64,000 nucleotides of DNA from an uncultured Prevotella sp. (GTDB taxonomy: Bacteria > Bacteroidota > Bacteroidia > Bacteroidales > Bacteroidaceae), in contig CAJJWN010000011.1 in the NCBI GenBank assembly GCA_905196835.1, positions 18,122 to 82,121 on the forward strand, in the 5' to 3' direction. Within the stretch, counting starts at the first letter, position 1, and the number at the start of each line of letters is the position of its first letter. The notes under the pieces were generated by a model. That model had not been told where the DNA came from, made no database searches, and was given only the letters and a program-made list of their open reading frames with translations. Positions 1,132 to 55,541 of this stretch are shown here, piece after piece. The position numbers and the translations under genes are program-made.

Positions 1132-1231
1132 AAAGGCCGCCTTTCACACGCTGAAAGGCGGCCTTTTGCCGTGCGTTTTGCGGCCTTTTGCAGGGCGAAA
1201 GGCCGTGTTTTGCAAGCTGGTTGTCAGCGAG
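1132..1231 (-). repeat. 4x22 element, copy 1 (head on the right)
   Basis: Four 22-nt units start at 1132, 1154, 1176 and 1198; the head at the right end carries TGACAACCA when read on the minus strand. Unit cores 1 and 2 are perfect reverse complements (AAAGGCCGCCTTT and AAAGGCGGCCTTT). It lies between the convergent secDF and flippase genes and touches the flippase stop codon. Confidence 0.85.
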
Positions 1232-2722
1232 CTATTTTTTGTGCAGCTTTTGTTTGATGCGTTCCAGGAGTGATGTGTTCTTTTGAATGGCATATAACGA
1301 TACGGCCATACTTGCAAGGAAGGTCGCAAGTCCGAGCGTTATGCGTAGCGCGGTGGTGGCTGCAAATGTAGCCATGTATGCCGCCGCGCCTATGGAGAAG
1401 TGCAGTATGGAGTAGATGACTGCCTGGCGCGACAGCCTGTAACGGTATCTTATGTGGGCGTAAAGGTATATTACGAGCATGTCGAAGACGTTTGCCAGCA
1501 TCAGTGCGACGCCCGCACCCGTCAGTCCCCAACGGTCGAAGCAGCAGAAGGTGAACACAATCAATGCTGCGGCCGACAATCCTTCTGTCACGAGAAAGGC
1601 CGTCGAGTGGCTTTTTGCGAGCGTTATGTACGTTATCGGCAGCAGTACGGCGCGTGCGTACATGCCGAGTACCGCCGCCTGTGCCATGCCCGTTACGGGC
1701 GTGAACTTGCCGCTGTACAGCAGCGGTATGAGCCAGGGCAGGGCCGCGAGCATGAACGTCAGCATCGGAGCGATGATGAGCAGCGTCACTTCTATTTGCC
1801 TGTTGGCCGCCGTGTTGACGGCCTCGGTGTCGTGGTTGACGGCCGATAGGCGCGGAAAATAGTCGGTCTCCATCGCCGTGAACACCATTCCGGCATATGT
1901 TACGGTGAGTATGTAGCCGGCGTTGTACAAGCCTACGGTGTCAAGTCCGCCCGCCGTGTTGAGGAACGAGCGCACTATCATCTCGGCTCCGCTGCCGAAC
2001 ACGCCCGACATTATGAACGCCAGCCCCAAGCGCACCATGTCTGTTCCCTCGCCAAGAGTGCGCCGCGCGCCGCGCAGCGAGAGCGGATACAGGCGCAGCG
2101 AGAAGCGCGCCGTAACGCCGAGGGCGGCCAGTGCGGTGAGCGTTATTACGGGTATTATGCCGCCGACGCCCATCAGCAGGTATGTGGGTACAGTCACGAC
2201 GAGCGACATTACGACCAGCATCACCTGCGTCTTGGCCAGCTCGCGCAGGCGGCGCGCGCCTTTCAGTATTGCCGTTTCGCCGCCCGTCAGCGCCATCGCG
2301 GCCACGGTAGGCGCGAGTGCCATTACCTGCCATGCGTGTCCTTCGCTGCCGAAGGCGTACCCGGCGAGCAGTGGTGCGGCCCCCATGCACACCGCCGCGC
2401 CTGCCAGGGCGGCCACAATGCTCCACGAGCGGACGGTCTTCACGTATGCCGCTATGCGCCGTTGGTCGCCGCTGTCAAAGATTTCCGACAGGTGCCTTAC
2501 CGCGCTGAACGATATTCCGAGGTTGGTTGCCTGCGACACGAAGTTGACTATTGTGTTCAGCAGCGACGCCAGTCCCATGCCCGCCGGTCCTAGTATGAGG
2601 GCCACGAGCTTGCTGCGCACAAGGCCGATGAGTATGTTCAGGCCTTGCACGCCGCCGAAGATGCCCGTATATTTAAGCACATGGGCGTAGCCGTTCTGCT
2701 TGTTTTCCGCGCTGTCCATCAA
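1232..2722 (-). CDS. Wzx-type O-antigen / polysaccharide flippase
   Basis: This is a 496-residue polytopic membrane protein of the MOP superfamily, most like O-antigen translocases that flip undecaprenyl-linked sugar units across the inner membrane. The N-terminal part (KYTGIFGGVQGLNILIGLVRSKLVALILGP) is typical of Wzx, where the first helix is followed by 'GLxxLLNT'. Twelve to fourteen hydrophobic segments cover the length and the C-terminus is basic (LERIKQKLHKK). No glycosyltransferase genes are adjacent, so its substrate cannot be read from context. Its stop codon abuts a 4x22 element. The start is the first Met of MMDSAENKQ; no clear -7 box was seen. Confidence 0.82.
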   Translation of the reverse strand: MMDSAENKQNGYAHVLKYTGIFGGVQGLNILIGLVRSKLVALILGPAGMGLASLLNTIVNFVSQATNLGISFSAVRHLSEIFDSGDQRRIAAYVKTVRSWSIVAALAGAAVCMGAAPLLAGYAFGSEGHAWQVMALAPTVAAMALTGGETAILKGARRLRELAKTQVMLVVMSLVVTVPTYLLMGVGGIIPVITLTALAALGVTARFSLRLYPLSLRGARRTLGEGTDMVRLGLAFIMSGVFGSGAEMIVRSFLNTAGGLDTVGLYNAGYILTVTYAGMVFTAMETDYFPRLSAVNHDTEAVNTAANRQIEVTLLIIAPMLTFMLAALPWLIPLLYSGKFTPVTGMAQAAVLGMYARAVLLPITYITLAKSHSTAFLVTEGLSAAALIVFTFCCFDRWGLTGAGVALMLANVFDMLVIYLYAHIRYRYRLSRQAVIYSILHFSIGAAAYMATFAATTALRITLGLATFLASMAVSLYAIQKNTSLLERIKQKLHKK

Positions 2723-2841
2723 TGATATAAACGGCGTACGGGTGGTTTTATTACACCGTTTGGCGGCAACTTTCCGCGTCCATAATGTCGTTTAGGCATG
2801 AAAATCATTATACTTTTGTTCTTCGGAAGGCTTTTTTATGC

Positions 2842-2850
2842 TATCTTTGC
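2842..2850 (+). promoter_or_regulatory. Bacteroidetes -7 box for the histidine kinase gene
   Basis: TATCTTTGC fits TAnnTTTG and lies 26 bp before the kinase start. A second possible box, TACTTTTGT, is at 2811-2819. No well-spaced -33 element was found for either. Confidence 0.5.
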
Positions 2851-2876
2851 ATAGTGAACCTAATACTTTATCTTGC

Positions 2877-4631: not shown

Positions 4632-4754
4632 TTCATAATTGGCTGCGCGTTGTGTTCGGTTGCAAAGCACCACAATTATGAATTGTGCATTGTGAATTAT
4701 GAATTACAACGCGCAGCCAATTATGAATTATGCATTGTGAATTATGAATTGAAC
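4605..4754. repeat. Perfect 49-bp inverted repeat overlapping the kinase gene end
   Basis: Arms 4605-4653 and 4706-4754 are identical as reverse complements over all 49 bp, with a 52-nt loop that itself repeats the AT-rich words AATTATGAATT and CACAAT. The left arm starts at a codon boundary and encodes the last eight residues (VQFIIHNA) and the stop of the histidine kinase. The AATTCATAATTCACAAT words recur near murI and at 55335-55395. Confidence 0.9.
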
Positions 4755-4778
4755 AACGAAAACCACGGATTTCCGTTA

Positions 4779-4809
4779 TTGCGATTATGAATGTATGGTA
4801 TAATTTTGC
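4779..4809 (+). promoter_or_regulatory. Promoter of the response regulator; start codon 4 bp after the -7 box
   Basis: TTG at 4779-4781, a 19-bp spacer, and TAATTTTGC at 4801-4809. Transcription would begin at or very near the ATG at 4814, so the mRNA is probably leaderless or nearly so. Confidence 0.7.
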
Positions 4810-4813
4810 CCCG

Positions 4814-5491: not shown

Positions 5492-5519
5492 AACAATACC
5501 GACCGTGGAAACATACCTG

Positions 5520-5555
5520 AAAGGCCGTCCAAACGCACCGTTTGGACGGCCTTTT
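5520..5555. terminator. Hairpin terminator built like two 22-nt units
   Basis: A 13-nt arm starting AAAGGCCGTCC, a 9-nt middle and the exact complementary 13-nt arm, ending in TTTT. The 13+9+13 layout is that of two units of the 4x22 family, with a different core. It should stop transcription after the response regulator. Confidence 0.8.
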
Positions 5556-5589
5556 CACATCGTTTCAACGGCTCTTTCTTGCCGCTTGC

Positions 5590-5705
5590 GTAACATGTTG
5601 GTATTCAGTGCTTTACAAAAGGCCGTCTTTCGCAATGCGAAAGGCGGCCTTTTAGCGTGTGAAAGACGGCCTTTCGGAAGGTGAAAGGCCGCCTTTTGCA
5701 AAACC
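5590..5705 (+). repeat. 4x22 element, copy 2
   Basis: The head starts GTAACATG and contains TTGGTATTCA. Units start at 5618, 5640, 5662 and 5684. Core 1 is the exact complement of core 3 and core 2 of core 4; neighbours pair with one mismatch or G-U. It lies between the response regulator and the peptidase gene, just upstream of the peptidase promoter. Confidence 0.9.
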
Positions 5706-5722
5706 ATTTGCCTTTGGCAAAA

Positions 5723-5755: not shown

Positions 5756-5759
5756 GGCC

Positions 5760-6770: not shown

Positions 6771-6827
6771 AGAAGTTAGGGAGCGTTAACTTCTTTAACT
6801 TCTCTAACTTCATAAAACAATAAAACG

Positions 6828-7700: not shown

Positions 7701-7817
7701 GTAAGTATTTGATAATCAGGTGTTTTGCAAAAGGCGGCCTTTTGGCTTCCAAAACACGGCCTTTTACAAAGCAATAGGCGGCCTTTCGCATTGCGAAAGG
7801 CCGCCTATTATATTTAG
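7701..7817 (+). repeat. 4x22 element, copy 3
   Basis: The head GTAAGTATT-TGATAATCA precedes units at 7730, 7752, 7774 and 7796. Units 3 and 4 have changed together: ATAGGCGGCCTTT pairs perfectly with AAAGGCCGCCTAT. It lies between the convergent HAD and rnc genes. Confidence 0.9.
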
Positions 7818-10563: not shown

Positions 10564-10763
10564 TTTTTTCAACAAAAATGTTTCATCTTTTGCACACATC
10601 GGTAACATGTGTGCAATAAAACAGGGGTTTGGATGGCATTCTCCTCATTGCCGGGCGGTAGCCCGTCTGCCGCCCGGTTTATATATTAAATAGGTGTGCG
10701 GACGGCTTAGTGCCATGCCGCGCGCCGCCTCCGCAGGCATGGCTCGTGGTTGTGTGGATTTCA

Positions 10764-10871
10764 AAAGGCGGTCTTTTGCATTCCGAAAGGCGGTCTTTTG
10801 CAATGTAAAAGGCCACCTTTTAGAGGCTAAAAGGCGGCATATTGGAAAGGCGTTGACTGTCAGCGGGTTAC
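10764..10871 (-). repeat. 4x22 element, copy 4 (head on the right)
   Basis: Units start at 10764, 10786, 10808 and 10830; the head, read on the minus strand, is GTAACCCGC-TGACAGTCA. The cores AAAGGCGGTCTTT (twice), AAAGGCCACCTTT and AAAGGCGGCATAT pair only imperfectly here. It lies between tRNA-Arg and the acpP promoter, all read leftward. Confidence 0.88.
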
Positions 10872-10937
10872 AAAGGCGGTGCATGTGCTTTGGCAATCGG
10901 GCTGCAAACGCCTTGCCGGCAAGGCCTTTACGCAATG

Positions 10938-17305: not shown

Positions 17306-17368
17306 CTGAAAAATATCGGATTTACGGCCTGTCGGCATCGTATTTTTGCGCCCGTCGAAGGCCAGCGC

Positions 17369-17496
17369 GTAACATATTGATTGACAACCACTTGCAGACA
17401 GCGTTGCGAAAGGCCGTCTTTCGTCTTCCAAAAGGCCGCCTTTTACGTTGCCAAAGGCCACCTTTTGCAGGCTCAAAGGCCGCCTTCCGCAAAACG
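17369..17496 (+). repeat. 4x22 element, copy 5
   Basis: The head GTAACATAT-TGATTGACA (a weak match) is followed by units at 17409, 17431, 17453 and 17475. All four cores run the same way (AAAGGCCGTCTTT, ..CCGCC.., ..CCACC.., ..CCGCC..) and can pair through their GGCC centres. It lies between the divergent metG and sigma genes; nothing else was seen in this 398-bp gap except the metG -7 box. Confidence 0.88.
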
Positions 17497-18999: not shown

Positions 19000-19242
19000 C
19001 GTGGGTTCGGTGTAAGATGCATCGGCAATCATCCAACTTCAAGCTGTCGGTTGGTATTTGTCATTCCGCGCTCCGACGCGGAATCCATTACGCAAACATG
19101 GAAAAACAGATTGTTTACACTGGATTCCGCGTCGGAGCGCGGAATGACAATTACCAACTGACTGTTCGGACCGAAAAAACAAGTAGCTGTACCATTGTTT
19201 GAAGGGTTATTCCTTATGCCGAACTCACACAGGAGATAACGT
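18986..19242. mobile_element. 223-bp MITE-like insertion between 17-bp direct repeats
   Basis: CACACAGGAGATAACGT occurs at 18986-19002 and again at 19226-19242. Between them, segments near both ends form an inverted pair (GTTCGGTGTAAG at the left, CTTATGCCGAAC at the right), and the centre is an inverted repeat (19059-19149) built on TTGTCATTCCGCGCTCCG with arms of about 37 bp. No ORF of note is inside. The layout is that of a non-autonomous element with an unusually long target duplication, or a local duplication. Confidence 0.6.
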
Positions 19243-19253
19243 TCAACCATGCA

Positions 19254-19288
19254 AAAGGCCGTATTCCATATTGCGGAATACGGCCTTT
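19254..19288. terminator. Bidirectional hairpin, two-unit relative of the 4x22 family
   Basis: AAAGGCCGTATTC, a 9-nt middle and GAATACGGCCTTT: a perfect 13-bp stem followed by T residues on both strands. It lies between the convergent Spy-like gene and murI and should stop transcription from both sides. Confidence 0.8.
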
Positions 19289-19343
19289 TGCATGGCATGT
19301 GCCAATGTATTGCTCCATTGCAGGCAAGCTTCCGCTTGGCTGC

Positions 19344-29885: not shown

Positions 29886-30545
29886 ATGCAGATAATAGAC
29901 CTTAGCAAAGAGAACTCCATCATCGGGCAGTACATGGCCGAGGTGAGGGACAAGGACTACCAGCAGAACCGCCTGCTCTTCCGTAACAACATCATGCGCA
30001 TAGGCGAGATGATGGCCTACGAAATAAGCAAGACGCTTGATTATGAGACGCGCGACGTCGAGACGCCTCTCGGCACGGCGCGCGTCAATGTGCCTGCCGA
30101 CAGGGTGGTGCTGGCTACCATCTTCCGCGCCGGACTGCCCTTCCACGCGGGCTTCCTCAACGTGTTCGACCACGCTGGCAACGCCTTCGTGAGCGCATAC
30201 CGCGAGTACACGGACAACGAACACACGCAGGTGGGCATACACGTTGAGTATCTTGCCACGCCGAGCGTCGAGGGCAAGACGCTCATTATAGTTGACCCGA
30301 TGCTGGCAACGGGCGGCTCCATGGAGCTGGGCTACAAGGCTTTCCTCACCCGCGGCACGCCAAAGCGCATCCATGTGGCCTGCGTCATAGCTTCGCCCGA
30401 CGGCATAGAGCACGTCAAACGCACGTTCCCCGACGACAAGACCACCGTGTGGTGCGCCGCCATCGACCCCGGCATGAACGAGCACAAGTACATAGTGCCG
30501 GGCTTCGGAGACGCCGGTGACTTGTGCTACGGCGACAAAGTGTAA
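29886..30545 (+). CDS. upp: Uracil phosphoribosyltransferase
   Basis: Upp salvages uracil by joining it to PRPP to give UMP. The 219-residue protein carries the PRPP-binding motif IIVDPMLATGGSM and the uracil-site end PGFGDAGDLCYG. It is transcribed alone from a full promoter and is followed by a 4x22 element. Confidence 0.95.
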   Translation: MQIIDLSKENSIIGQYMAEVRDKDYQQNRLLFRNNIMRIGEMMAYEISKTLDYETRDVETPLGTARVNVPADRVVLATIFRAGLPFHAGFLNVFDHAGNAFVSAYREYTDNEHTQVGIHVEYLATPSVEGKTLIIVDPMLATGGSMELGYKAFLTRGTPKRIHVACVIASPDGIEHVKRTFPDDKTTVWCAAIDPGMNEHKYIVPGFGDAGDLCYGDKV

Positions 30546-30549
30546 GTGA

Positions 30550-30657
30550 AAAGGCCGTCTTTCAGGCGGCAAAAGGCCGTCAATCGGAAGGTAAAATGCC
30601 GTCTTTCGCAGTGCGAAAGGCGGCATTTTGCAAAACAGTTGATTATCAAAGCGTTGC
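30550..30657 (-). repeat. 4x22 element, copy 6 (head on the right)
   Basis: Units start at 30550, 30572, 30594 and 30616; the head, read on the minus strand, holds TGATAATCA. Units 3 and 4 pair with a shared change away from the usual core (AAATGCCGTCTTT with AAAGGCGGCATTT, one G-U). It lies between the convergent upp and esterase genes. Confidence 0.9.
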
Positions 30658-30685
30658 GCACCGGTGCACAACAGTTGCGCCATGG

Positions 30686-33505: not shown

Positions 33506-33632
33506 CGCTTTGGCGATAAAAAACCGATAAAATAACGGATAACCGGCGATTAAAAAACGCTTAAATTCATGTGGCCGTTTAATTTTACCGTTACGGTCTG
33601 TTGCGCGGCGGCCTGTTACCAATGAAAATGTG

Positions 33633-33740
33633 GAAGGTGGCCTTTGGCATTGTAAAAGGCCATGAATTGCACGCTAAAAGGCCGCCTTTTGCAAGCTAAA
33701 AGACGGCCTTTTGTAAGTAGTTGAAAATCAAGGTAATTGA
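33633..33740 (-). repeat. 4x22 element, copy 7 (head on the right)
   Basis: Units start at 33633, 33655, 33677 and 33699; the head, read on the minus strand, contains TTACC-TTGATTTTCA. Units 3 and 4 pair with one G-U. It lies between ispG and the GH71/99-like gene, both on the minus strand, and runs into the inverted repeat at 33735. Confidence 0.88.
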
Positions 33741-38768: not shown

Positions 38769-38886
38769 GCTAACACGCTGATTATCAACGGCTTTCCAAT
38801 ATGCCGTCTTTTACATTGCAAAAGGTGGCCTTTTAGCGTGCGATTGACGGCCTTTTGCATCGCGATTTGCCGCCTTTCGCGCAACC
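38769..38886 (+). repeat. 4x22 element, copy 8
   Basis: The head GCTAACACGC-TGATTATCA leads to units at 38799, 38821, 38843 and 38865. Cores are strongly varied (ATATGCCGTCTTT, AAAGGTGGCCTTT, ATTGACGGCCTTT, ATTTGCCGCCTTT). It lies between divergent rpoN and the TonB receptor, just upstream of the receptor promoter. Confidence 0.88.
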
Positions 38887-44215: not shown

Positions 44216-44299
44216 CACATTACCTACAGCATGACTTGCAGCAGGACATAAACGGAATAACCTTCAATATCCATCCAACAGATTTGCGGATAAACCGTA

Positions 44300-44409
44300 A
44301 GAGGTGGCCTTTCACGTTGCGAAAGGCCACCTTTTGCATTGTAAAAGGCCGTCTTTTGCAAGCTAAAAGACGGCCTTTTGGAAACCCCTTGACTGCCAGC
44401 CGTTTACAA
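44300..44409 (-). repeat. 4x22 element, copy 9 (head on the right)
   Basis: Units start at 44300, 44322, 44344 and 44366; the head, read on the minus strand, is GTAAACGGC-TGGCAGTCA. Units 1 and 2 pair through GGTGGCC/GGCCACC, and units 3 and 4 pair perfectly through GGCCGTC/GACGGCC: two different stem sequences in one element. Confidence 0.92.
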
Positions 44410-44657
44410 AGCCCGCGCAAGCCGCCGCGCCAGGCGGCACAAGAGGCGGCGTAACTACAAGTAGGTATGCCTGCCGCATCACCGTTTTTAGGTACGCCAA
44501 GGCCGTCGGCCGGATGCCTGGTAACGTTTATAGGAAAAACAGAACACTTTGCTTTACGTTTCGACCAAGCGGCAACGGCATTCCGCATGGCGGCATCCCC
44601 ATTTGTCGGCATTGCCGAAACACACGCCGATACATGGTTTTTACCGATTTTTAAGTA

Positions 44658-44689
44658 TTGCTAACATTTTCTGATTGATGTACTTTTGC
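44658..44689 (+). promoter_or_regulatory. Promoter of the porin gene
   Basis: TTG (44658-44660), a 20-bp spacer and TACTTTTGC (44681-44689), 40 bp before the ATG. Confidence 0.75.
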
Positions 44690-44729
44690 ATCGGAAATCA
44701 TTACCGCAAACAAACCATAAAACGACAAT

Positions 44730-46037
44730 ATGAACAGTTTAAAGACAATGTTTTCAATGTGCGCGCTGGCCTTCTGCCTCGCCACGACTACGGCGCGGGC
44801 GCAGGTTTCGGCGGCCGACAGCGTGTATGAGCACGCCAAGGGCAACCGCCTTAGCATAGGTGGCTACGGCGAAATAGCCTATTCGCGCAACTTTTACAGT
44901 GACAACCCGTTCCGTTACGCCAACCCGTCGTATTACAAGAACGACCCTTCGCACGGGCGGTTTGACATTCCCCACGCCGTGCTTTACGTAGGCTACGACT
45001 TCGGCAAGGGCTGGAGCGTGGGCATGGAGCTTGAGTTCGAGCACGGCGGCAGCGGCGGAGCAATAGAGAAGGAAGCCGAGGAAGGCGGCGAATGGGAGGC
45101 CGAGACCGAGAAGGGAGGCGAGGTAGAGCTGGAGCAGTTCTGGGTGCAGAAGTCGTTTGCAGACTGGGCCAACATACGCTTCGGCCACATCGTGGTGCCC
45201 TTCGGACTTACCAACGCCCACCACGAGCCGCTCAACTTCTTCACCGTCTACCGTCCCGAGGGCGAGCGAACAATAATTCCAAGCACGTGGCACCAGACGG
45301 GCATCTCGTTCTTCGGCCGCTCGGGCGACTTCCGTTACGAGCTTCAGTTCACCGGAGGGCTTGACGCCATGTTCTTCGACCGCACCTACTGGATAGGCAA
45401 GGGAGCGCAAAGCCCGTGGGAGTTCGAGGTCGCCAACAAGTTCGGCGTGCTCGCACGCATCGACAACTACGCCGTGCCCGGCCTGCGCATAGGCCTCAGC
45501 GGCTACTACGGCAAGACGATGCACAACACGTTTCCGCACGACCTCGAGACCGACGGCAACCGATACAAGGACATTGAGGGCAACCTTTACCTCGGCTCCA
45601 TCGACTTCACGTACAACGCGCACAACTGGATTGCGCGCGGATATGCCGACTACGGCTACGTGAGCGACGCACAGGCAATCAGCGCAATCAAGGCAAACCA
45701 GTCGTCGGGCACGTCGCCTTACCGCAAGACCGCATTCGGCTCGCACGCCGTTGCGGTGAGCGTCGAGGCCGGCTACGACGTGTTCTCGCAGTTCCATAAG
45801 CTGCGCCGCACGGGGCAGAAGCTCTACGTCTTCGGCCACTACGAGTATTACGACTCTTACGTGAACAACGTTACCAACACCTATACCAACAAGAACATAG
45901 TTGCCGCCGGCGTAAACTATTACCCCGTTCCGCAAATAGCCGTCAAGGCGGAGTACAACCACCGCTTCCTCAAGAGCGGCTACAACGACGAGCCTGCGCT
46001 CAACATCGGAGTGGCATACGAGGGCTTTTTCATGTAA
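44730..46037 (+). CDS. OprP/OprO-like outer membrane porin
   Basis: This 435-residue protein has a signal peptide ending TTARAQ, then GGYGEIAYSRNFYSDNPFRY and a 16-strand-type barrel with GHIVVPFGLTNAHHEPLNFFTVYRPEGE, typical of the phosphate-selective porin group (OprP/OprO), ending in GVAYEGFFM. An acidic insert (GGAIEKEAEEGGEWEAETEKGGEVELE) about residues 110-136 could bind cations. Its place just before imelysin and a di-haem protein suggests it passes iron or another metal, not phosphate; this is inferred. Confidence 0.75.
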   Translation: MNSLKTMFSMCALAFCLATTTARAQVSAADSVYEHAKGNRLSIGGYGEIAYSRNFYSDNPFRYANPSYYKNDPSHGRFDIPHAVLYVGYDFGKGWSVGMELEFEHGGSGGAIEKEAEEGGEWEAETEKGGEVELEQFWVQKSFADWANIRFGHIVVPFGLTNAHHEPLNFFTVYRPEGERTIIPSTWHQTGISFFGRSGDFRYELQFTGGLDAMFFDRTYWIGKGAQSPWEFEVANKFGVLARIDNYAVPGLRIGLSGYYGKTMHNTFPHDLETDGNRYKDIEGNLYLGSIDFTYNAHNWIARGYADYGYVSDAQAISAIKANQSSGTSPYRKTAFGSHAVAVSVEAGYDVFSQFHKLRRTGQKLYVFGHYEYYDSYVNNVTNTYTNKNIVAAGVNYYPVPQIAVKAEYNHRFLKSGYNDEPALNIGVAYEGFFM

Positions 46038-46064
46038 ATATATTGCACTTTTAAATATGGACAG

Positions 46065-46185
46065 CCTTTGTAGGGACATAATTCATTATGTCCGCACGTT
46101 CTGAAAGAACGTTTTTACTGTGCTGCTCTTATGTAATACGCCTCTTCGCGGCGTGCGGACATAATGAATTATGTCCCTACAAAGG
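46065..46185. mobile_element. Hairpin-rich MITE, copy 2
   Basis: Inverted ends CCTTTGTAGGGACATAATTC.. enclose the ACGTTCT..AGAACGT and CGCC..GGCG hairpins in the same order as copy 1. It lies between the porin and imelysin genes, leaving about 40 bp for the imelysin start signals. Confidence 0.85.
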
Positions 46186-46226
46186 GTGTGTAAACTTAGT
46201 ATTCAAACCAGATTAAACGATAGTAT

Positions 46227-47552
46227 ATGAAAAGAATGGCAAACTTTTGGGCTGCGCTCTGCATCGGGGCGCTTGCCATGACGTCGCTCTCTGCGTGCAG
46301 CGACGACGACGCTCCCGGCCTCGGGGGCGACAAGGAGAACCCCGTAATAGGCAACCGCTGGAGCGGAATACAGGCCGAAATGTGGGAAGTTGCAAACCAG
46401 TACATCAACCAAGTGGTGTATCCTACGTACAAGAACCTCGCCGCCAGTGCCGACGTTCTTTATGAAGAGGCCGTAAGCGTGCAGCAGAAGCACGGCGCGG
46501 GCACACTTACCGACGCCGACGTTGAGGCCGCCTGCGATGCCTTCAAGGCGGCACGCGAGTATTGGGAGAAGAGCGAAGCCTTCCTCTACGGCGCGGCGAC
46601 AGACTTCAACATTGACCCGCACATGGACTCGTGGCCGCTCGACCAGGGGCAGATGGCCGACTTCATGTCTAACTCTACGATGGTCGCCGGACTGTACAGC
46701 GACGACCCGATAGCCTTCGTCAACCGTAATAACGCCAACTTCGATACGGCTCTCGGCTTCCACGGACTTGAGTTCGTGCTCTTCCGTAACGGTGCTCCGC
46801 GCCCCGCGTCGGTGTTCGACGGCGTTGAAGACCACGAGAGTTTTGCTGGCAAACCAACCGTGCAGTGCAAGGACGAGCTGGCCTTTCTCGTGGCCGTTGC
46901 AGGCGATGTGCGCGACAACTGCTATCGTCTTGAGGTGGCATGGCTCGGCCTTCAGGCCAACACCGCTCACATTGCGCGTGTCAAGGAGCTTGGTGTGAAG
47001 ACCCATGCGCTCGACGACAACGGCTATTATTACGGTGCCGACATGCTCCTTGCAGGCACTGACGGCAGCTCGTATGCCTCCATCACCGCCGCGCTTGTCA
47101 CCCTCGTGGGCGCTTCGGGCTGTGGAAACATAGCCAACGAGGTGGCAAGCCAGAAGATAGGACAGGCTTACCGCGTGGCTACGGGGCAGCCTTCTCTCGA
47201 CCCGAACGAGCCTGACGCAATCGACTACATCGAGTCGCCGTATAGCAAGAGGTCGTACATCGACTACCGCGACAACATATACAGCATCAAGAACAGCCTT
47301 TACGGCAACATCGACCAGAGTGCTCCTGCGGCCAAGTCGGTAATGACTTTCCTCAAAGACAACGGCTACAGCGGTGTCAACGACTTGCAGTCGGCACTTG
47401 ACAACGCCATTGCCAAGCTTACCACATGCGTCGAGAGTGGCGTTGCCTTCGTAGACAATCCGGGCGCACAACAGGCCGGAGACGCGATGCAGGCTGTCGA
47501 TGCGCTCAACGGACAGCTTGAGGCTGCGGCGCAGTGGATAGAGAAACAATAA
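46227..47552 (+). CDS. Imelysin-family lipoprotein (M75/IrpA-like)
   Basis: This 441-residue lipoprotein (lipobox SLSACSDDD) belongs to the imelysin family, helical periplasmic or surface proteins linked to iron uptake (EfeO, IrpA). It has the family GxHxxE motif (GFHGLEFVLF, His179 and Glu182), which binds metal in related proteins, and the second half has repeated helical bundles. In several bacteria imelysin genes lie with a di-haem peroxidase-like gene, as here, where the di-haem gene follows by 147 bp. It is probably cotranscribed with the porin or di-haem gene. Confidence 0.9.
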   Translation: MKRMANFWAALCIGALAMTSLSACSDDDAPGLGGDKENPVIGNRWSGIQAEMWEVANQYINQVVYPTYKNLAASADVLYEEAVSVQQKHGAGTLTDADVEAACDAFKAAREYWEKSEAFLYGAATDFNIDPHMDSWPLDQGQMADFMSNSTMVAGLYSDDPIAFVNRNNANFDTALGFHGLEFVLFRNGAPRPASVFDGVEDHESFAGKPTVQCKDELAFLVAVAGDVRDNCYRLEVAWLGLQANTAHIARVKELGVKTHALDDNGYYYGADMLLAGTDGSSYASITAALVTLVGASGCGNIANEVASQKIGQAYRVATGQPSLDPNEPDAIDYIESPYSKRSYIDYRDNIYSIKNSLYGNIDQSAPAAKSVMTFLKDNGYSGVNDLQSALDNAIAKLTTCVESGVAFVDNPGAQQAGDAMQAVDALNGQLEAAAQWIEKQ

Positions 47553-47568
47553 CCGGGCATAAGCCTGC

Positions 47569-47642
47569 CATACAGGCATAGCCATGCAGCCGTGCGCATT
47601 GTGGCGTGTTATTATACCGCGCCAATATGCGCATGGCTGTAA
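47569..47642. repeat. Imperfect hairpin between imelysin and di-haem genes
   Basis: TACAGGCATAGCCATGCAGC.. and ..GCGCATGGCTGTA pair with gaps over about 22 bp. It may be a terminator or a processing site; there is no strong T run. Confidence 0.4.
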
Positions 47643-47699
47643 GGCTTTTCAGCTTAGACGGGAAAAGATGATACAGAAACATTAATAAAAAACAGTAAA

Positions 47700-49421
47700 A
47701 TGAAGAACATTTTTTATCCTTTCATCATGGCTTCGGCTGTTTTCGCGCTGTCTGCTTGCAACGACGAAGACGTAAGGAGGCTGAGCGTTGAGACCGACGC
47801 CAACTATGTCGGCACGGCGCAGGGCAACTTCACGGCCGAAGAATGGTATCCCGGCGGAAAACTGGGAACTACCGAGAACGTCTACGCCGGTTGCTACGAG
47901 GACGAGACTCCGGCAACCGAGGCGCAGGGACTGATGGACGAATTCAACGAGGGTGAGCAGATTTTCGAGCGCAGCGTCACGGTAAGTACGCCGCCGTTCA
48001 AGGGACTTGGCCCGGCCAGCACGCGCCGTTCGTGCCTTGACTGCCACCCGAGCTACGGCCACGGCAAGCGCTTCGACACGTACACCACTGCTTACGGCAA
48101 CGGTAACGGCTACCTGCTCGTAATCTATCATCCCAACTCTCCCGGCTCCAACGACGGCCCGTATATCAGCGAGGTGACCGCAATGCCGCAGACGCAGGCT
48201 ACAAGTCCCTTCCTGCCTCCTATCGACGAGAGCCAAATCCAGATGCGTTGGGAGAAGGTTACGGCCATGGAGAGCGGCCTGCCGATGCAGTTTCCCGACG
48301 GCGAAAAGTACGAGTTGATTTACCCGGAGCTTAGCATTCCGCAGTCGGCGTTCAACACTTCGCCGAAGCCGGAGAACATCGAGATACGCCTGGAATCGAC
48401 CATCGGCATAATAGGCACAGGTCTCTTGGACGCCATAGAGGAAGATGACATACGCAAGCAGTACGCCTCTACGGCGGCGTATTACAAGGAGAAGGGCTTG
48501 GACGTATCAGAGTATGTCAACCCAAGCTATTGGGACGCGGCTGCAAACGACTTCGCCGCAGGGGCGTGGTACACCACGTTCGGCAGCGCAGGACGCATGG
48601 CCGACGGCTCGCCCGGCGCTTCAAGGATGGTCAAGAGGTTCACTTACGCCCTGACGCGCGCCACGCTTCAGGACGGCCCCGGTGCCAACGCGGTGTGGAA
48701 CATTACAAACGTGAGCCGCCCCGACCGCCCGAAACTCTATACAACCGATGCCTGGGCGAAGGCCATGTCGGAAAATCCTGACGTGCTCGCAGCCATCAAG
48801 GCCGACCCTACATCGCCTTACTACGCCGACACGGAGGAGGGTATTGCGGAGCGTGTGTTCAACCTTTTAAGCCCGAATACCAACCAGTTTGACAACCAGT
48901 GGTACAACTTCGAGCCGGACATGACCACCGACCAGTTCTACGCGCTCATGGTATGGCACCGCGGCCTGTCAATACCGCGCGCCCGCAACCTGAACGACCC
49001 CGACGTGCAGCGCGGCAAGGAGCTGTTTATGGAGATGGGTTGCGCCTCGTGCCACCGCCCGTCATGGAAGACCGGCGACGACAACTACTGGACGCCCGAG
49101 TGCATAGCCGACCGTCCGCTGCCGCGCTACCAGAACCAGACTATATGGCCGTACAGCGACATGATGCAGCACAAGCTCTACATGAAGAACGACATTCACG
49201 GCTCGTGGTGCCGCACTACGCCGCTCTGGGGGCGCGGACTATCGCGCGTGAACACCGGCGCGGAGGACCGCCTGCACGACTGCCGCGCGCGCAACGAGGT
49301 AGAGGCCGTGATGTGGCACGCGTACAGCAAGCAGAGCCACGCCTACGAGTCGGCGGAGAAATTCTACAATCTGCCGAAGAAAGACAGGGACGCCGTGGTG
49401 AAGTTCTTGCAGTCGATATAA
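47700..49421 (+). CDS. Di-haem oxidoreductase lipoprotein (DHOR/DUF1111 type)
   Basis: This 573-residue lipoprotein (lipobox ALSACNDED) has two c-type haem motifs, CLDCH at residues 112-116 and CASCH at 448-452, the layout of the di-haem oxidoreductase (putative peroxidase) group found beside imelysin genes. Other family parts are PPFKGLGPASTRRSC and VMWHAYSKQSHAYESAEKFYNLPKKDRDAVVKFLQSI. It needs cytochrome c assembly; the ResB-CcsA gene that follows supplies it. Its role in iron handling is inferred from context. Confidence 0.87.
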   Translation: MKNIFYPFIMASAVFALSACNDEDVRRLSVETDANYVGTAQGNFTAEEWYPGGKLGTTENVYAGCYEDETPATEAQGLMDEFNEGEQIFERSVTVSTPPFKGLGPASTRRSCLDCHPSYGHGKRFDTYTTAYGNGNGYLLVIYHPNSPGSNDGPYISEVTAMPQTQATSPFLPPIDESQIQMRWEKVTAMESGLPMQFPDGEKYELIYPELSIPQSAFNTSPKPENIEIRLESTIGIIGTGLLDAIEEDDIRKQYASTAAYYKEKGLDVSEYVNPSYWDAAANDFAAGAWYTTFGSAGRMADGSPGASRMVKRFTYALTRATLQDGPGANAVWNITNVSRPDRPKLYTTDAWAKAMSENPDVLAAIKADPTSPYYADTEEGIAERVFNLLSPNTNQFDNQWYNFEPDMTTDQFYALMVWHRGLSIPRARNLNDPDVQRGKELFMEMGCASCHRPSWKTGDDNYWTPECIADRPLPRYQNQTIWPYSDMMQHKLYMKNDIHGSWCRTTPLWGRGLSRVNTGAEDRLHDCRARNEVEAVMWHAYSKQSHAYESAEKFYNLPKKDRDAVVKFLQSI

Positions 49422-49658
49422 TGGAAGGGATTGGCCTGATAAGCCCGATAGGCAAAGATTAAGCATAAGCCTAATGAGCCTAATAAGCCCGATTAGCCGG
49501 ATGCGCCGCTGCGGCACACGGGCTGCGTATTAGGCTAATCAGGCTCATTGGGCTTATCCTCAGCCTGCTTTGTTGAGCTAATCAGGCCCATTGGGCTTAT
49601 CCCCGGCCTTCTTTGTTCGGCTAATCGGGCTCATTGGGCCAATCCTTTTTATCCAATG
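49422..49658. repeat. Tandem 43-bp repeats and GGCTAATC-type inverted repeat
   Basis: Three copies of a 43-bp unit start GCTAATCAGGCTCATTGGGC at 49534, 49577 and 49620 (the last is partial). Their complement appears upstream at about 49465-49500 (AAGCCTAATGAGCCTAATAAGC). Similar words occur at 36390-36480, 7640-7690 and 17263-17290. No gene was seen between the di-haem and ResB-CcsA genes. Confidence 0.75.
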
Positions 49659-49776
49659 CCTAACTGCCTGATAATCAGGCATCTTTCAAAAGGCCGTCTT
49701 TTAGGCTCTAAAAGACGGCCTTTTAGCCTGCAAAACATGGCCTTTTGCAATGCGAAAGGCCGTCAATTACAAAACA
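49659..49776 (+). repeat. 4x22 element, copy 10
   Basis: The head CCTAACTGCC-TGATAATCA leads to units at 49689, 49711, 49733 and 49755. Units 1 and 2 pair perfectly over 13 bp (GGCCGTC/GACGGCC). It lies 15 bp before the ResB-CcsA start codon. Confidence 0.92.
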
Positions 49777-52098: not shown

Positions 52099-52128
52099 TT
52101 TTAGCGATAGTCTGGTATAAGAATACAT

Positions 52129-52249
52129 CCTTTGTAGGGACATAATTCATTATGTCCGTACGCCACGGAGGGGCGTTTTTACAACGCGCAGCAAATGAAA
52201 TACGTTTCTGCGAAACGTGCGGACATAATAAATTATGCCCCTACAAAGG
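52129..52249. mobile_element. Hairpin-rich MITE, copy 3 (diverged)
   Basis: The ends CCTTTGTAGGGACATAATTC.. and ..CCCTACAAAGG match the family; the inner hairpins have changed sequence but not layout (GTACGCC..GGGGCG then TTTTT, and ACGTTTC..GAAACGT). One arm has lost perfect pairing (ATAATAAATTATGCCCC). Confidence 0.82.
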
Positions 52250-52288
52250 ATGTGGCGTTTAATAAGTCATAACCAGTCTTTTGTCGTT

Positions 52289-52418
52289 TTGTAACTTATT
52301 GACAATCAACGGCTTATATATGACGCTGCAAAAGGCCGTCTTTCGCATTGCGAAAGACGGCCTTTTAGCTCGCGATTGACGGCCTTTTACAAGGCGAAAG
52401 ACCGTCAATTGCAAAATG
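52289..52418 (+). repeat. 4x22 element, copy 11
   Basis: The head TTGTAACTTAT-TGACAATCA leads to units at 52331, 52353, 52375 and 52397. Units 1 and 2 pair perfectly; units 3 and 4 pair through ATTGACGG/CCGTCAAT with one mismatch. It lies between convergent ResB-CcsA and recX and ends 8 bp from the recX stop. With MITE copy 3 it fills this 328-bp gap. Confidence 0.92.
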
Positions 52419-52426
52419 TATGTGCG

Positions 52427-52882
52427 TCAACGCATGGCCGCCTTAGATTCTTCCACGCTGAAACCGCGGCCTGCGGCGAAGCGCATCAGCTTCATCTCAA
52501 GCTCATACGGGTTGTCGGCCTTGATGCTTTTTGCCTTCGCTTGCAGCATGGGGCGTAGTATTTCGACGTATTCCGACGGGTCAACCTCGTCAAGGGCGGC
52601 GGCTATTGCGTCGTCGGGAATGCGCTTCATGTAGAGCGCCTGCTCTATTTTGCGCCTTCCCCACTTGGCATACCGCACCTTGTCGTGCACGAAGGCGCGG
52701 GCGTAACGGTCGTCGTCGATGTAGCGTTCATCAGCCAAACGCCCGATGACACGCTGCTGCACGTCGTCCGGCACCTGCCATGTGCGCATCTTCGCGGCCA
52801 TCTCCTGACGGCAGTGCTCGGCCCTGGCGCAGAGCGCGGAGAGGCGATAGAAAAGCTGTTCTTCGGTCAATTCTTTTTTCAT
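52427..52882 (-). CDS. recX: Regulatory protein RecX
   Basis: RecX limits RecA activity. The 151-residue protein has the three-helix repeats of the family, with RLADERYIDDDRYARAFVHDKVRYAKWGRRKIEQALYMKRIPDDAI in the middle. The start at 52882 was chosen because the upstream frame translates a GGGAGAGC-type repeat. It lies 80 bp after prmC on the same strand; recA is not in the window. Confidence 0.9.
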   Translation of the reverse strand: MKKELTEEQLFYRLSALCARAEHCRQEMAAKMRTWQVPDDVQQRVIGRLADERYIDDDRYARAFVHDKVRYAKWGRRKIEQALYMKRIPDDAIAAALDEVDPSEYVEILRPMLQAKAKSIKADNPYELEMKLMRFAAGRGFSVEESKAAMR

Positions 52883-52962
52883 TGGTGGTATTTTGATGGG
52901 TGGACTGGGAGTGCTGGGAGGACGGAGAGAGCTGGGACGGGGTGAAAAAGGTAATAAATTCT

Positions 52963-53820
52963 TCACTCTTCCCTCTTCACTCTTCCCTTAATAACCGCCT
53001 TCATCATTCTCTTCTTGCCGTACATGTCGTCGATTACGGTCACTTCCGCGAAGCCCGTTTGCCGCGCCATGTCGGCCGTCAGGTCGGCGTACAGGGGGTT
53101 AAGCTCAAAGTACAGCGCGCCGCCGGGGCGCAGGGTGGAGTGCGCGTAGCGCGTGATTGCGTTGTAGAAGAGCAGCGGCTCTTCGTCAGGAACGAACAAG
53201 GCGGAGTGCGGCTCATGGTCGAGCACGTTGGCGGCCATGTCCTTTTTCTCCTTATTACATATATAGGGAGGATTTGATACGATGACGTCCCACTGCTCGC
53301 CCGTCGGCTGCAAGGCCAGCGCGTCGCGGCGTTCAAGCGTCACGTCTGCGTCGAGCCGCCGCGCGTTGGCCTGCGCTACGGCGAGCGCATCGTCAGAGAT
53401 GTCACACGCGGTGACGCGGCTTTGCGGCATGTCGAGCGCAATGGTTACGGCTATGCAGCCGCTGCCCGTGCCAATGTCGAGCACCTTTGCATCCTTCTTT
53501 TCTTTCCATTCTGACGCTACGAGGGCGCAAAGCTCCTCAGTCTCGGGCCTCGGTATGAGTACGCCGGGGCGCACAAAGAACCACCGGCCGCCAAATTCGG
53601 CGCGGCCTACGACGTACTGCACCGGCTCGCCTTGCAGCAGACGGCTGAACAGGCGGTAGAGTTCGGCCTGCTTCTCGGCCACCATATCCTCCACCGCACC
53701 ACACATAACGTCGGCCTTCGACAGTCCGAAGTACACGTCGAGCACGTAGTCCGTCACGGCGCGCGCCTCCCCTTTGCCGTAAAGCGGCACGAGGCTGTGC
53801 CACAGTTCGCGGTAAGTCAT
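52963..53820 (-). CDS. prmC: Peptide chain release factor N5-glutamine methyltransferase
   Basis: PrmC methylates the GGQ glutamine of release factors. The 285-residue protein has an N-terminal helical domain and a Rossmann methyltransferase fold with the SAM motif VLDIGTGSGCIAVTIAL and the catalytic SNPPYI. The start MTYRELWHSL at 53820 overlaps the stop of the RHH gene (ATGA), so the two are translated together; a longer upstream frame was rejected. Confidence 0.94.
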   Translation of the reverse strand: MTYRELWHSLVPLYGKGEARAVTDYVLDVYFGLSKADVMCGAVEDMVAEKQAELYRLFSRLLQGEPVQYVVGRAEFGGRWFFVRPGVLIPRPETEELCALVASEWKEKKDAKVLDIGTGSGCIAVTIALDMPQSRVTACDISDDALAVAQANARRLDADVTLERRDALALQPTGEQWDVIVSNPPYICNKEKKDMAANVLDHEPHSALFVPDEEPLLFYNAITRYAHSTLRPGGALYFELNPLYADLTADMARQTGFAEVTVIDDMYGKKRMMKAVIKGRVKREE

Positions 53821-54020
53821 TGGCCGTCCTCCTTTCCGCCGTCCTCCGCAGGGCGGCGTTTCTTCGGCATCCGGCCATGCTTCCGCAAGGCTTCCGCTAT
53901 GAGCCATTGCAGCTGTCCGTTGACTGAACGGAACTCGTCGGCCGCCCATTTCTCCACGGCGGCCATCATGTCCTCGTCCATGCGCAGGATGAAGCTCTTT
54001 TGTTTATTCTCCTTTTTCAT
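53817..54020 (-). CDS. Arc-like ribbon-helix-helix DNA-binding protein
   Basis: This 67-residue basic protein has the Arc-type ribbon-helix-helix pattern: KQKSFILRMDEDMMAAVEKWAADEFRSVNGQLQWLIAEALRKHGR, with a beta strand (SFILRM) followed by two helices, then a basic tail. It probably binds DNA as a dimer. It lies directly before prmC and after two small membrane protein genes. In other Bacteroidales a similar small protein lies near an SPFH gene, as it does here. Confidence 0.8.
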   Translation of the reverse strand: MKKENKQKSFILRMDEDMMAAVEKWAADEFRSVNGQLQWLIAEALRKHGRMPKKRRPAEDGGKEDGQ

Positions 54021-54066
54021 TTCAAAAGCAGACAAGTTGACAAGTTACGGGTGACAAGCAGGCAAG

Positions 54067-54609
54067 TCATACATGCGTTGCATTGTCGTTATTCTTAGTC
54101 AGCGACCGGCGGTATTCGGGCGAACGGTAATACTGGTAGAACGTGATGTACTGGCGCATGACCCCGAATGTGCACACAATCAGCCATATGAACCAGCCGC
54201 GCAGCCAGTCTGCAAAGTCCTTGGTGAATGCGTCGTAGCCTTCGAACACGAGTTCGCCTATCGTCCATCCGATTGTGACCGCCACGAAACTTATAGCAAG
54301 TCCTGTTGCGATGAACCGCCACTTGCTCCTCAACCACAGGCGGTGATACCAACCCCCCCGCGGCCCCCCCCGCTTCAACGGCTTGCGGCGGAACTTGACG
54401 TAATAGATTCCAAAGGCGAAGCCGCCGCCAAGAAACAGTGCCGGCATCCATATAAACACAGGGTCGGATGGCCCCTTGATTATGCCAGCGACGATGAATA
54501 TCAGGGCGAACACTGTGCCTATGCCGATGACAAGCCAGCCCTCCAGCACAGGACTGCACGTGTATTCCACAACGTTTACCCTGCTTGCGTATCTTTTGAG
54601 AAATCCCAT
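54067..54609 (-). CDS. Small four-helix membrane protein, related to the gene at 54808
   Basis: This 180-residue protein has about four membrane segments (near 25-45, 50-68, 97-118 and 135-155), a FRRKPLKRGG stretch between helices 2 and 3, and ends YQYYRSPEYRRSLTK. The protein at 54808-55329 shares the layout, the FRRKP stretch and the YYRS ending, so the two are probably old duplicates. The function is unknown. Two C runs of 7 and 8 (54353-54359 and 54364-54371) lie in the coding strand region for GGPRGG and could slip. Confidence 0.7.
   Translation of the reverse strand: MGFLKRYASRVNVVEYTCSPVLEGWLVIGIGTVFALIFIVAGIIKGPSDPVFIWMPALFLGGGFAFGIYYVKFRRKPLKRGGPRGGWYHRLWLRSKWRFIATGLAISFVAVTIGWTIGELVFEGYDAFTKDFADWLRGWFIWLIVCTFGVMRQYITFYQYYRSPEYRRSLTKNNDNATHV
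54353..54371. repeat. Paired homopolymer C tracts inside a membrane protein gene
   Basis: Seven C, then GCGG, then eight C. Read as G runs on the coding strand they encode GGPRGG. Loss or gain of one base would truncate the protein. Confidence 0.85.
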
Positions 54610-54646
54610 GTCGAGTTGTGTTATTATGAGTTACGTATGAAAGCAC

Positions 54647-54767
54647 CCTTTGTAGGGACATAATTCATTATGTCCGCACGTTCTGAAAGAACGTTTTTCA
54701 TTTACTGCGCTTTGATAATACGCCTCTTCGCGGCGTGCGGACATAATGAATTATGTCCCTACAAAGG
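54647..54767. mobile_element. Hairpin-rich MITE, copy 4
   Basis: Ends and inner hairpins match copies 1 and 2 in the same orientation. Just outside the right end is CTTATGCCGAACTCAC (about 54776-54792), which also occurs at 19213-19228 beside the insertion there. It separates the two related membrane protein genes. Confidence 0.87.
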
Positions 54768-54807
54768 ATGTTTTCTTATGCCGAACTCACGTCGTTTTAA
54801 TGTCTTT

Positions 54808-55329
54808 TCAATACCAGTCGATGTATTCGCGTGTGTTTTCCTGCGAGCGGTAGTAGCCTTGCAGGTCGATGTACGTTGTCAGGACATCAAACACAAACAT
54901 CATCAAGAGCCATGAATAGGCAACCATGTCATAAGCCCATTCGTTGAAATCCAGTGCCTTGAATCCGCTGTCAAGCAGTTCCAGGAACGTCAGCAACGCA
55001 GGGTAGCCAACAACTGCGGCAGCCAGCGCGCCAACGAGCCACAGCTTTCCGTAGCGCATGTAGAGGCGGTGCGAGAGCGTGCCGAGCACAACGTTATTCT
55101 CGAACGGCTTGCGCCTGAACAGCCACAGGTATGCGTAGCGTATTACGATTGCGCCGAGAATTACTACGGTAAGCCACGTTCCCCACCTGTCCCACGCGCC
55201 GGTAAGCTCGGCGTTGAGCACGTGCAGGGCGAGCAACGGTACGCCCGTGAATACGTAGACCATGCCTACGCGCCGTGGCGAGGTCTTGTAATAAGCCAGT
55301 TTGCGTTGTTTTCTTTTTATTCCGAACAT
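54808..55329 (-). CDS. Small four-helix membrane protein, related to the gene at 54067
   Basis: This 173-residue protein has a basic N-terminus (MFGIKRKQRKLAYYKTSPRR), four membrane segments (near 24-40, 51-70, 95-112 and 135-155), the FRRKPFENN stretch and the ending GYYRSQENTREYIDWY. It resembles the gene at 54067 in layout and in these motifs. No function is known. A MITE lies between the two. Confidence 0.7.
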   Translation of the reverse strand: MFGIKRKQRKLAYYKTSPRRVGMVYVFTGVPLLALHVLNAELTGAWDRWGTWLTVVILGAIVIRYAYLWLFRRKPFENNVVLGTLSHRLYMRYGKLWLVGALAAAVVGYPALLTFLELLDSGFKALDFNEWAYDMVAYSWLLMMFVFDVLTTYIDLQGYYRSQENTREYIDWY

Positions 55330-55411
55330 GTTGTTTCAATTCATAATGCACAATTAGCTTAAGCTGACTTTCAGTTCATAATGCATAATCAGGCATACGC
55401 CGTAAGGAGTG

Positions 55412-55541
55412 TTGTAAGTATTTGAGTTTCAGATGTTTACCAGTTGTCTTGCAAAAGGCCGTCTTTTAGCCTCTAAAAGGTGGCCTTTCAGGCTGTAAAA
55501 GGCCACCTTTTGCAGGGCTGTTTGCCGTCTTTTAGAGAGTG
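55412..55541 (+). repeat. 4x22 element, copy 12
   Basis: The head TTGTAAGTATT-TGAGTTTCA leads to units at 55454, 55476, 55498 and 55520. Here units 2 and 3 pair perfectly (GGTGGCC/GGCCACC) rather than 1 with 2. The rest of the 345-bp gap holds CTGGGAG-type words (55543-55590, also at 52905 and 63328) and TTAATTCTTAA words. Confidence 0.9.

Follow-up and report, generated by a model that had tools for sequence, protein, structure and literature searches.

The 64,000-nt stretch of DNA analysed here (the window), which comes from an uncultured Prevotella sp. (GenBank assembly GCA_905196835.1, contig CAJJWN010000011.1, positions 18,122 to 82,121), carries twelve copies of an intergenic element, here called the 4x22 element, in which a head with dyad symmetry is followed by an array of 22-nt units, usually four of them. 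Its kind is known, namely the dispersed intergenic palindromic repeat, and its new aspect is a geometric definition combined with drift of the letters. Shared letters are the usual basis for defining high-copy intergenic repeats, whereas the 4x22 element is defined by a preferred number of four units, an exact 22-bp step, a head that shifts in 11-bp steps and symmetric partners that change together. By analogy with the BIME-2 repeats of E. coli, we suggest, with a rough probability of 0.45, that the element is an architectural site of double-stranded DNA, wrapped or bent by a putative protein reader. An earlier examination of the letters, referred to as the sequence-only reading, had described each copy as one head plus exactly four near-palindromic units; this observation was confirmed with corrections on the count, the core and the period, and the interpretation attached to it is, as a whole, partly supported.

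Anatomy and unit number

All twelve copies (e1132 to e55412) were found at the positions given by the sequence-only reading and in both orientations, seven of them (+) with a left-hand head and the other five reversed, and each contained four 22-nt units when read by eye. A scan of the window for the core with up to 2 mismatches recovered three or four cores in each copy, owing to drift in some of the units. The same scan found four single cores and one pair (19254/19276) outside the copies; the pair was rejected as a copy, as it is a stand-alone hairpin. A head with GTAA(C/G) and a TGA-N3-TCA-like motif, said to be shared by all copies, was seen in most of them, but that of e1132 is degraded (TGACAACCA, without GTAAC), as is that of e33633, which also lacks GTAAC. 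Exactly 11 additional nucleotides separate the head from unit 1 in copies 17369, 52289 and 55412. All twelve copies lie between called genes, as had been described, and at e1132 the degraded head abuts the end of the following gene.

In a profile of 58 copies, conservation sets in abruptly at GTAAC (-28 from unit 1) and declines around +87, with almost random sequence on either side. Because a head-plus-unit pattern was used to choose these copies, the columns that it fixes are conserved through the choice itself, but the pattern did not include GTAAC, units 2-4 or the tail. The head starts with GTAAC, 8 nt ahead of a small dyad and 28 nt ahead of unit 1. Automatic counting over 150 distinct copies (at least 40 bits) assigned four units to 129 of them, and 1, 2, 3, 5 and 6 units to 1, 1, 9, 9 and 1 copies, respectively. 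Inspection by eye showed that several rows counted as three hold a drifted fourth unit and several counted as five a spurious leading one, and at least six copies (in L003, L010, L011, L017, L051 and L052) have five true units. Four is thus a strong preference rather than the invariable count first described. Copies with freely varying unit number and no conserved head were not found.

Helical spacing of units and head

Unit profiles were trained on the family, and the next unit was left free to occur at 12-33 nt; 425 of 426 measured steps were 22 nt, and one was 21 nt. The head was scored by a profile made from strict copies, scanning distances of about 14-77, and 135 of the 150 copies scored above the 99% background level. 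The distance from the head centre to unit 1 was 14 in 16 of these copies, 15 in 89, 24 in 1 and 26 in 29, so that 134 of 135 scorable copies had 14-15 or 26. AT content had about ten times the power of shuffled sequences at 11 bp (2.60, compared to 0.27 in shuffles and 0.32 in other intergenic DNA), whereas power at 22 bp was barely raised (0.33 vs 0.25), and the true period is therefore the half-unit. The 22-bp step described by the sequence-only reading stands as the step between units, but AT/GC alternation has a period of 11 bp, half a unit.

The dyads are centred at -15 (head), 18 (units 1/2) and 62 (units 3/4), with spacings of 33 and 44 bp, or 44 and 44 bp in the class with the longer head distance. 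As these spacings are multiples of 11 bp, all three dyads fall on the same side. Phased binding on one face of the DNA, proposed earlier for four dimers, is supported at the level of sequence by the unit step, the head distances and the 11-bp periodicity. A dinucleotide wedge model predicted a median bend of 58 degrees for the elements, compared to 34 for shuffled sequences, 38 for other intergenic DNA and 30 for coding DNA.

Inverted pairing of units and drift of the core

Pairing was tested in the 129 of 150 copies with four counted units, including six copies from more distant genomes, which were pooled as one group in the within-genome shuffles and the identity comparison. An excess of inverted Watson-Crick matching was found for units 1/2 (z 9.5; 6.8 when shuffled within genome) and for units 3/4 (z 5.4; 4.9 within genome), and the remaining four unit pairs reached at most z 2.6 (1.2 within genome). 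Direct identity between units had z of at most 2.3, and a small inverted excess of units 1/3 with G-U allowed (z 3.5) was reduced to 1.2 by within-genome shuffling. Perfect pairing of the 13-nt cores, G-U allowed, was present for units 1/2 in 76 of 129 copies (50.4 ± 3.2 in shuffles) and for units 3/4 in 12 of 129 (4.6 in shuffles). In a 56-copy alignment, a structure of two hairpins had 128 cells changed on both sides, compared to 93 in shuffles and at most 33 in slid versions. An alternative fold pairing units 1/4 and 2/3 was rejected, as it had no covariation above shuffles (60 cells vs 66), as were palindromes within single units, with a small excess only (47 double-change cells vs 37).

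Kinship among copies could inflate these covariation tests; the orthologue series at e49659 shows separate changes. Five different core pairs at this site remain complementary in 8 of 9 genomes, as judged by eye: GGCCGTC/GACGGCC in the window, G002 and G009, GGCCGCC/GGCGGCC in G003, GGTTACC/GGTAACC in G004 and G005, GGCCACC/GGTGGCC in G007, and GACGGTC/GACCGTC in G008. G006 stands against the pattern, since its units 1/2 are not complementary and its head is not visible. With GGTTACC, GACGGTC and others at one orthologous site, and different cores in other genomes, the claim that the core is built around GGCC has to be given up. Since e55412 of the window pairs units 2/3 instead, the choice of partner is not fixed at every locus.

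Raw GU:AC counts were 109:79 and 154:163, compared to 139:109 and 175:185 in shuffles. These ratios are close to composition and so do not point to an RNA transcribed from just one of the strands. The deficits of GU and AC against shuffles were dropped as evidence, because fixed column totals force them to be equal, and hence the raw ratio alone was used. Selection on symmetry and a replication-based correction of palindromes both fit the covariation of units.

Conservation of position

Of the nine genomes compared, the closest relative is G002, an uncultured Prevotella metagenome-assembled genome (MAG), with aligned blocks 74-95% identical. The gap of e49659 had a match in all 8 other genomes fetched (G002-G009), that in G006 being weak (34 bits). 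The junction from its tail to the next gene was alignable and of equal length in the window, G003, G004 and G005, and two bases longer in G008; the head distance, read by eye, was 15 in the window and G002-G005 and 26 in G007-G009, a step of 11 nt. The gap of e55412 held a copy in 6 of 6 genomes fetched, reversed in G008, next to a left flanking gene just 30-35% identical. Copies were also found at the gap of e44300 in 2 of 2 genomes (same orientation in G002, opposite in G009) and at that of e17369 in 1 of 1 (G002), whereas the gap of e52289 held a copy in G002 and G006 and none in G003, G005, G007 and G008.

Compared with the corresponding place in G002, the element was more conserved than both of its 60-nt flanks in 6 of 7 window copies, although e17369 exceeded its flank only barely (0.66 vs 0.64) and at e52289 everything was conserved. 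Identity to the G002 counterparts was 0.71, 0.66 and 0.67 for e7701, e17369 and e33633, which is the ordinary level of paralogues, so these three need not share descent with the G002 copies. Copies of the same genome had a mean identity of 67.6% over 88 nt and a maximum of 92%, with no sign of a recent burst. The copies are old and for the most part occupy the same gap in different species, although the majority of flanks have diverged.

A 28-kb segment of the window (about 10764-38691) is inverted in G002, and the oppositely oriented copies e10764 and e38769 are at its ends. Separately, window positions 46201-49559 are 94.6% identical to G002, and 44636-49587 are 89.5% identical to G003, where the next genes are just 75% identical; recent transfer or unusual conservation are both possible.

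Copy number, placement and related arrays

A sequence-only model (R1), built from 56 copies with three five-unit copies left out, gave at least 150 matches in each of nine related Prevotellaceae genomes; a copy can match on both strands, and one such double place was visible among the matches listed for G001. A pattern scan with one genome per species found 53 stretches in nine genomes, all from records titled Prevotella, Prevotellaceae or Marseilla massiliensis. Density was 12 copies in the 64-kb window, 14 (at least 40 bits) in an 83.4-kb syntenic contig of G002, and 53 in 286.7 kb when the window, this contig and other syntenic regions were taken together (one per 5.4 kb), the regions having been chosen by synteny and some of them fetched around known copies. 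Extrapolated to 2.7 Mb, this corresponds to about 450-520 copies, in line with the several hundred per genome expected by the sequence-only reading.

Of 131 copies that could be placed among the 150, 78 were in tandem gaps, 35 in divergent gaps and 18 in convergent gaps; 18 of the other 19 were at locus edges, and one, a partial hit of 47 bits, was within a called gene. Heads in tandem gaps pointed upstream in 37 cases and downstream in 41. Within the 286.7 kb, a copy was present in 38 of 49 gaps of at least 300 bp, compared to 14 of 144 shorter ones, where it should be considered that the copy itself lengthens its gap and that genes were called by our own codon-based script.

Beyond these genomes, R1 had matches in 15 of 151 genomes from the family to which G009 belongs, counting the centre genome, with at least 24 each in G065 and G101, whose copies have a GTAA...TTAC-like head, units with other cores and often a drifted fifth unit. 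Both had zero stretches with an exact frame of three units (AAAG-N5-CTTT three times at 22 nt), yet R1 found the related family in them. This frame was present in 21 of 399 genomes of the family, the centre included, compared to 3 of 399 for a reversed control, and at the order level in 3 of 393 genomes, two of them already in the family; strict TGANNNTCA was near only 3 of the 21 frame loci listed. We collected 27 rows from other genomes, which are 24 distinct loci and 3 repeats (G300, G308, G370, G117, G215, G145). A good head was found in 12 of 27 rows (10 of 24 loci), at a distance of 14, 15, 25, 26 or 37, and with a lenient threshold 12 rows had five units, 11 had four, 3 had three and 1 had six, so that the preference for four may not be strict there. 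Among 11 arrays from other genomes that were tested, 10 had significant phasing at 11 bp.

Two further types of array were observed. Loci L136, L137 and L141 (G361, G393 and G266) have AAAGC-N3-GCTTT arrays at 22 nt whose flanks differ and that lack a strict TGANNNTCA head, and may represent a parallel family, and L134 (G207) is a perfect head-to-tail tandem array of the 22-nt sequence AAAGGTATACTTTAGTGCCATT, unlike the diverged four-unit element.

A possible architectural site and alternative explanations

As an architectural site, the element would consist of a head forming a dyad of about 27 bp (GTAAC-N3-yTGAywrTCAr-N4-yTTnC), followed by eight half-units of 11 bp, with a helically phased alternation of A/T-rich tetramers and G/C-rich stretches; a pair of half-units would make one 22-nt unit, and units 1/2 and 3/4 two further dyads. 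An oligomeric protein that bends or wraps DNA would most likely read the phased deformability and the symmetry, and not the exact letters. DNA gyrase is one candidate for the reader and a nucleoid protein having about four DNA-binding dimers is another, and the effect may be like that of E. coli BIME-2 sites, i.e. pinning or bending DNA in long intergenic gaps. Fixed linkers and a head distance that changes in steps of one turn are difficult to account for with an RNA, whereas a protein bound to one face of double-stranded DNA explains them readily; in particular, the loop of an RNA hairpin does not need a fixed 7-nt linker, and the exact 22-nt step therefore favours a DNA site. The natural copies at one locus across species, which serve as mutants, likewise argue for a reader of double-stranded DNA. 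Also in favour are the 11-bp periodicity of AT content, a predicted bend above that of the controls, GU:AC ratios free of strand bias beyond composition, the similar phasing of E. coli gyrase sites and the enrichment of gyrase cleavage sites in BIME-2 (PMC6379681). Excerpts of open-licence articles report that RemA binds poorly conserved repetitive DNA (PMC8481266), that a bacterial histone wraps DNA as tetramers (PMC12701072) and that Sa-Lrp forms octamers (PMC3584215). If the proposal is right, the element would make chromosome organisation in the Prevotella group, for which no such site was found described in the open-licence literature searched, accessible to experimental tests, and it would be a natural analogue of the signals that position gyrase or nucleosomes. 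Rather doubtful, in our judgement, is the narrower version in which the element positions a wrapped protein-DNA particle, an oligomer of four dimers sets the unit count, and phase and symmetry are selected while letters drift; if true, the chromosome would have most of its long intergenic gaps marked by wrapped particles, about 500 in all.

Several observations weigh against an architectural site. The predicted bend is modest and overlaps that of other intergenic DNA (90% points of 77 vs 72 degrees), and bending does not require that units 1/2 be complementary at the level of letters, which could stem from correction of quasi-palindromes during replication. In other genomes, 15 of the 27 rows lacked a good head and gave scattered best distances, and the array of G316 had no significant 11-bp power. 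The earlier suggestion of a DNA-binding protein with the same phyletic range as the element found no support in Lrp/AsnC proteins, which were tested as such a marker and rejected because they are present nearly everywhere (15 of 15 genomes with the element and 14 of 15 others). Gyrase as the reader can be compared with strong gyrase sites (the Mu strong gyrase site and the E. coli consensus), which, in the excerpts available, resemble the element in length (about 115-130 bp) and in AT/GC phasing of roughly 11 bp; E. coli sites are described as 130 bp long with a GC periodicity of 10.75 bp, and their motif as a 36-bp centre between two 47-bp periodic arms (PMC6379681). The 4x22 element differs from them, as it has a dyad head and a one-sided phased arm of 88 bp, and this also counts against the proposal.

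The covariation of units 1/2 and 3/4 as inverted partners, including the five core pairs that remain complementary at e49659, would equally be expected if the two pairs formed RNA hairpins (AAAAGGC...GCCTTTT) that end transcription from either side, i.e. if the element were a bidirectional intrinsic terminator or transcription insulator. A terminator-like hairpin was present on at least one strand in 43 of 53 copies and on both in 31 of 53, copies in tandem gaps are nearer to the upstream stop (median 67 bp) than to the next start (170 bp), and action on two strands would likewise give no GU/AC bias. However, 35 of the 131 placed copies are in divergent gaps, and the genes' own terminators were equally rare with and without a copy at convergent ends (2/20 and 2/20) and tandem ends (2/32 and 3/62). 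The terminator role raised by the sequence-only reading is possible in itself, but neither the strict spacing (the fixed 7-nt linkers and the 11-nt step of the head) nor the head is explained by it, and we consider it unlikely as an account of the whole element. Folding of the DNA itself, as a cruciform or a pair of single-strand hairpins recognised by a nuclease, recombinase or HUH enzyme, would account for the concentration of inverted covariation in units 1/2 and 3/4, and both ends of the 28-kb inversion at oppositely oriented copies would suit it. Perfect core pairing in just 76 of 129 copies (units 1/2) and 12 of 129 (units 3/4) speaks against such folding, helical spacing of the head is not predicted by it, and the inversion ends may simply avoid genes; we consider it very unlikely.

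Discrete boundaries, unrelated flanks and very many copies are also what would be left by a remnant or slow mobile element, similar to a REP or a miniature inverted-repeat transposable element (MITE), whose fixed plan would reflect the requirement of a putative transposase. The presence of e52289 in 2 of 6 other genomes, the opposite orientation within the same gap in some species, and two copies in G300 that are 5 kb apart and, by eye, have most sequence in common are consistent with such an origin. With regard to empty sites and target-site duplication, presence varies among genomes at e52289, but the flanks there are disturbed by other repeats. Against mobility stand the low identity within genomes and the orthologous gaps that stay occupied (8/8 at e49659, 6/6 at e55412), and the head and the tail are not inverted repeats of each other, the consensus ending in GTAAC... 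and a weakly conserved ...TTGnAAAAC, unlike the terminal inverted repeats of a MITE. PF01797 (Y1_Tnp) was present in 4 of nine high-copy genomes and absent from G002, G004, G005, G008 and G009, which are MAGs or drafts where a gene may have been missed; in a test of 21 genomes it was present in 7 with no link to the element, and was rejected as a partner. Of 522 called genes, 254 adjoin a copy; a recurrent flanking gene family was rejected, as the 14 families with the largest numbers of members beside copies looked like same-locus orthologues or tandem paralogues. Viral contigs gave 0 stretches with one strict pattern, which itself matches just 5 of the 12 window copies, and plasmids gave no match to one copy used as the query. 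The mobile REP-like element with a TnpA_REP partner that the sequence-only reading had envisaged is therefore not borne out, as PF01797 is absent in 5 of 9 genomes and the copies are old and mostly in place, and mobility in the wider sense we regard as improbable.

Comparison with known repeats and sites

A search of Rfam over the window returned tRNA only, apart from four weak hits at e49659 far below gathering, and the open-licence literature, as far as it was available in excerpts, contained no description of such an element or of its reader, so the sequence-only reading's statement that it matches no described family stands for these sources. The nearest counterparts in E. coli are REP and BIME-2 repeats, of which the former are annotated at 697 places (PMC12306157); like the 4x22 element, they are palindromic with many intergenic copies, and BIME-2 are in addition enriched in gyrase cleavage sites (PMC6379681). 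REPs carry a tag, GTAG or CGTC, at the foot of the palindrome (PMC3733652). The head of the 4x22 element begins with GTAAC, and unlike BIME-2 or REP the element has no GTAG tag and no consistent Y1_Tnp partner, but has units stepped by exactly 22 bp, a dyad head placed at a helical distance and core letters that drift.

The BrickBuilt MITE of Porphyromonas gingivalis is similar in having tandem repeats of comparable length with a leader and in being described as always intergenic; its 19 elements of 84 to 991 nt contain 1 to 22.8 copies of a 23-nt repeat, with terminal inverted repeats like those of ISPg1/ISPg9 (like GAGACCTTTGCA), according to excerpts of its description (PMC4596501). The 4x22 element differs in its 22-nt steps, its four units in 129 of 150 copies and its lack of GAGACCTTTGCA-like ends.

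BOX elements of Streptococcus pneumoniae are modular, with an internal repeated module that varies in number. They resemble the 4x22 element in this modular structure and differ in the varying number of the module, and to our knowledge no helical phasing is known for them. BOX elements are also reported to form clusters with other repeats and to insert into one another (PMC10969869).

Copies in the window

The copies in convergent gaps are e1132 (1123..1240, - strand), with a degraded head and four units, e7701 (7701..7817, +), with head and four units, of which units 3/4 are a perfect inverted pair, e30550 (30544..30659, -), with head and four units, and e52289 (52290..52418, +), with head, 11 additional nt and four units. 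Divergent gaps contain e10764 (10758..10873, -) and e38769 (38770..38886, +), both with head and four units, which mark the two ends of the 28-kb inversion relative to G002, and e17369 (17368..17495, +), again with 11 nt between head and units. Tandem gaps hold e5590 (5589..5705, +) and e44300 (44294..44409, -), each with head and four units, e33633 (33627..33738, -), with four units and a head lacking GTAAC, e49659 (49659..49775, +), with head and four units, the site of the compensatory core changes and the 11-nt step between head and array, and e55412 (55414..55541, +), with head, 11 nt and four units, of which 2/3 and not 1/2 are complementary.

Other repeats near the copies

A separate inverted-repeat element with ends GGTTCATCCGCA...TGCGGATGAACC has repeatedly inserted directly after unit 4 in G002 (L004, L006, L020, L025, L033, L037, L043 and L073) and is found in the window at about 743 and 63947, often nested with a palindromic GTCATTCCGCGCTCCGACGCGGAATCC repeat. 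The GGTTCATCCGCA common after unit 4 in G002 was thus rejected as a tail of the 4x22 element. Stand-alone hairpins AAAGGCCGT...ACGGCCTTTT at window positions 5510-5560 and 19248-19301, whose outer letters are common to the element units, are apparently ordinary terminators. A second dispersed repeat of about 150 bp is located at 52102-52254 and 54628-54793; G001, G003, G006 and others contain numerous matches to it, with identities of 91-94% for the best, and the strand matched by one window copy is opposite to that matched by the other. An inverted repeat TGTCATTCCGCGCTCCGACGCGGAATCC...GGATTCCGCGTCGGAGCGCGGAATGACA at 19050-19160 forms a MITE-like palindrome, which is present in G002 as well.

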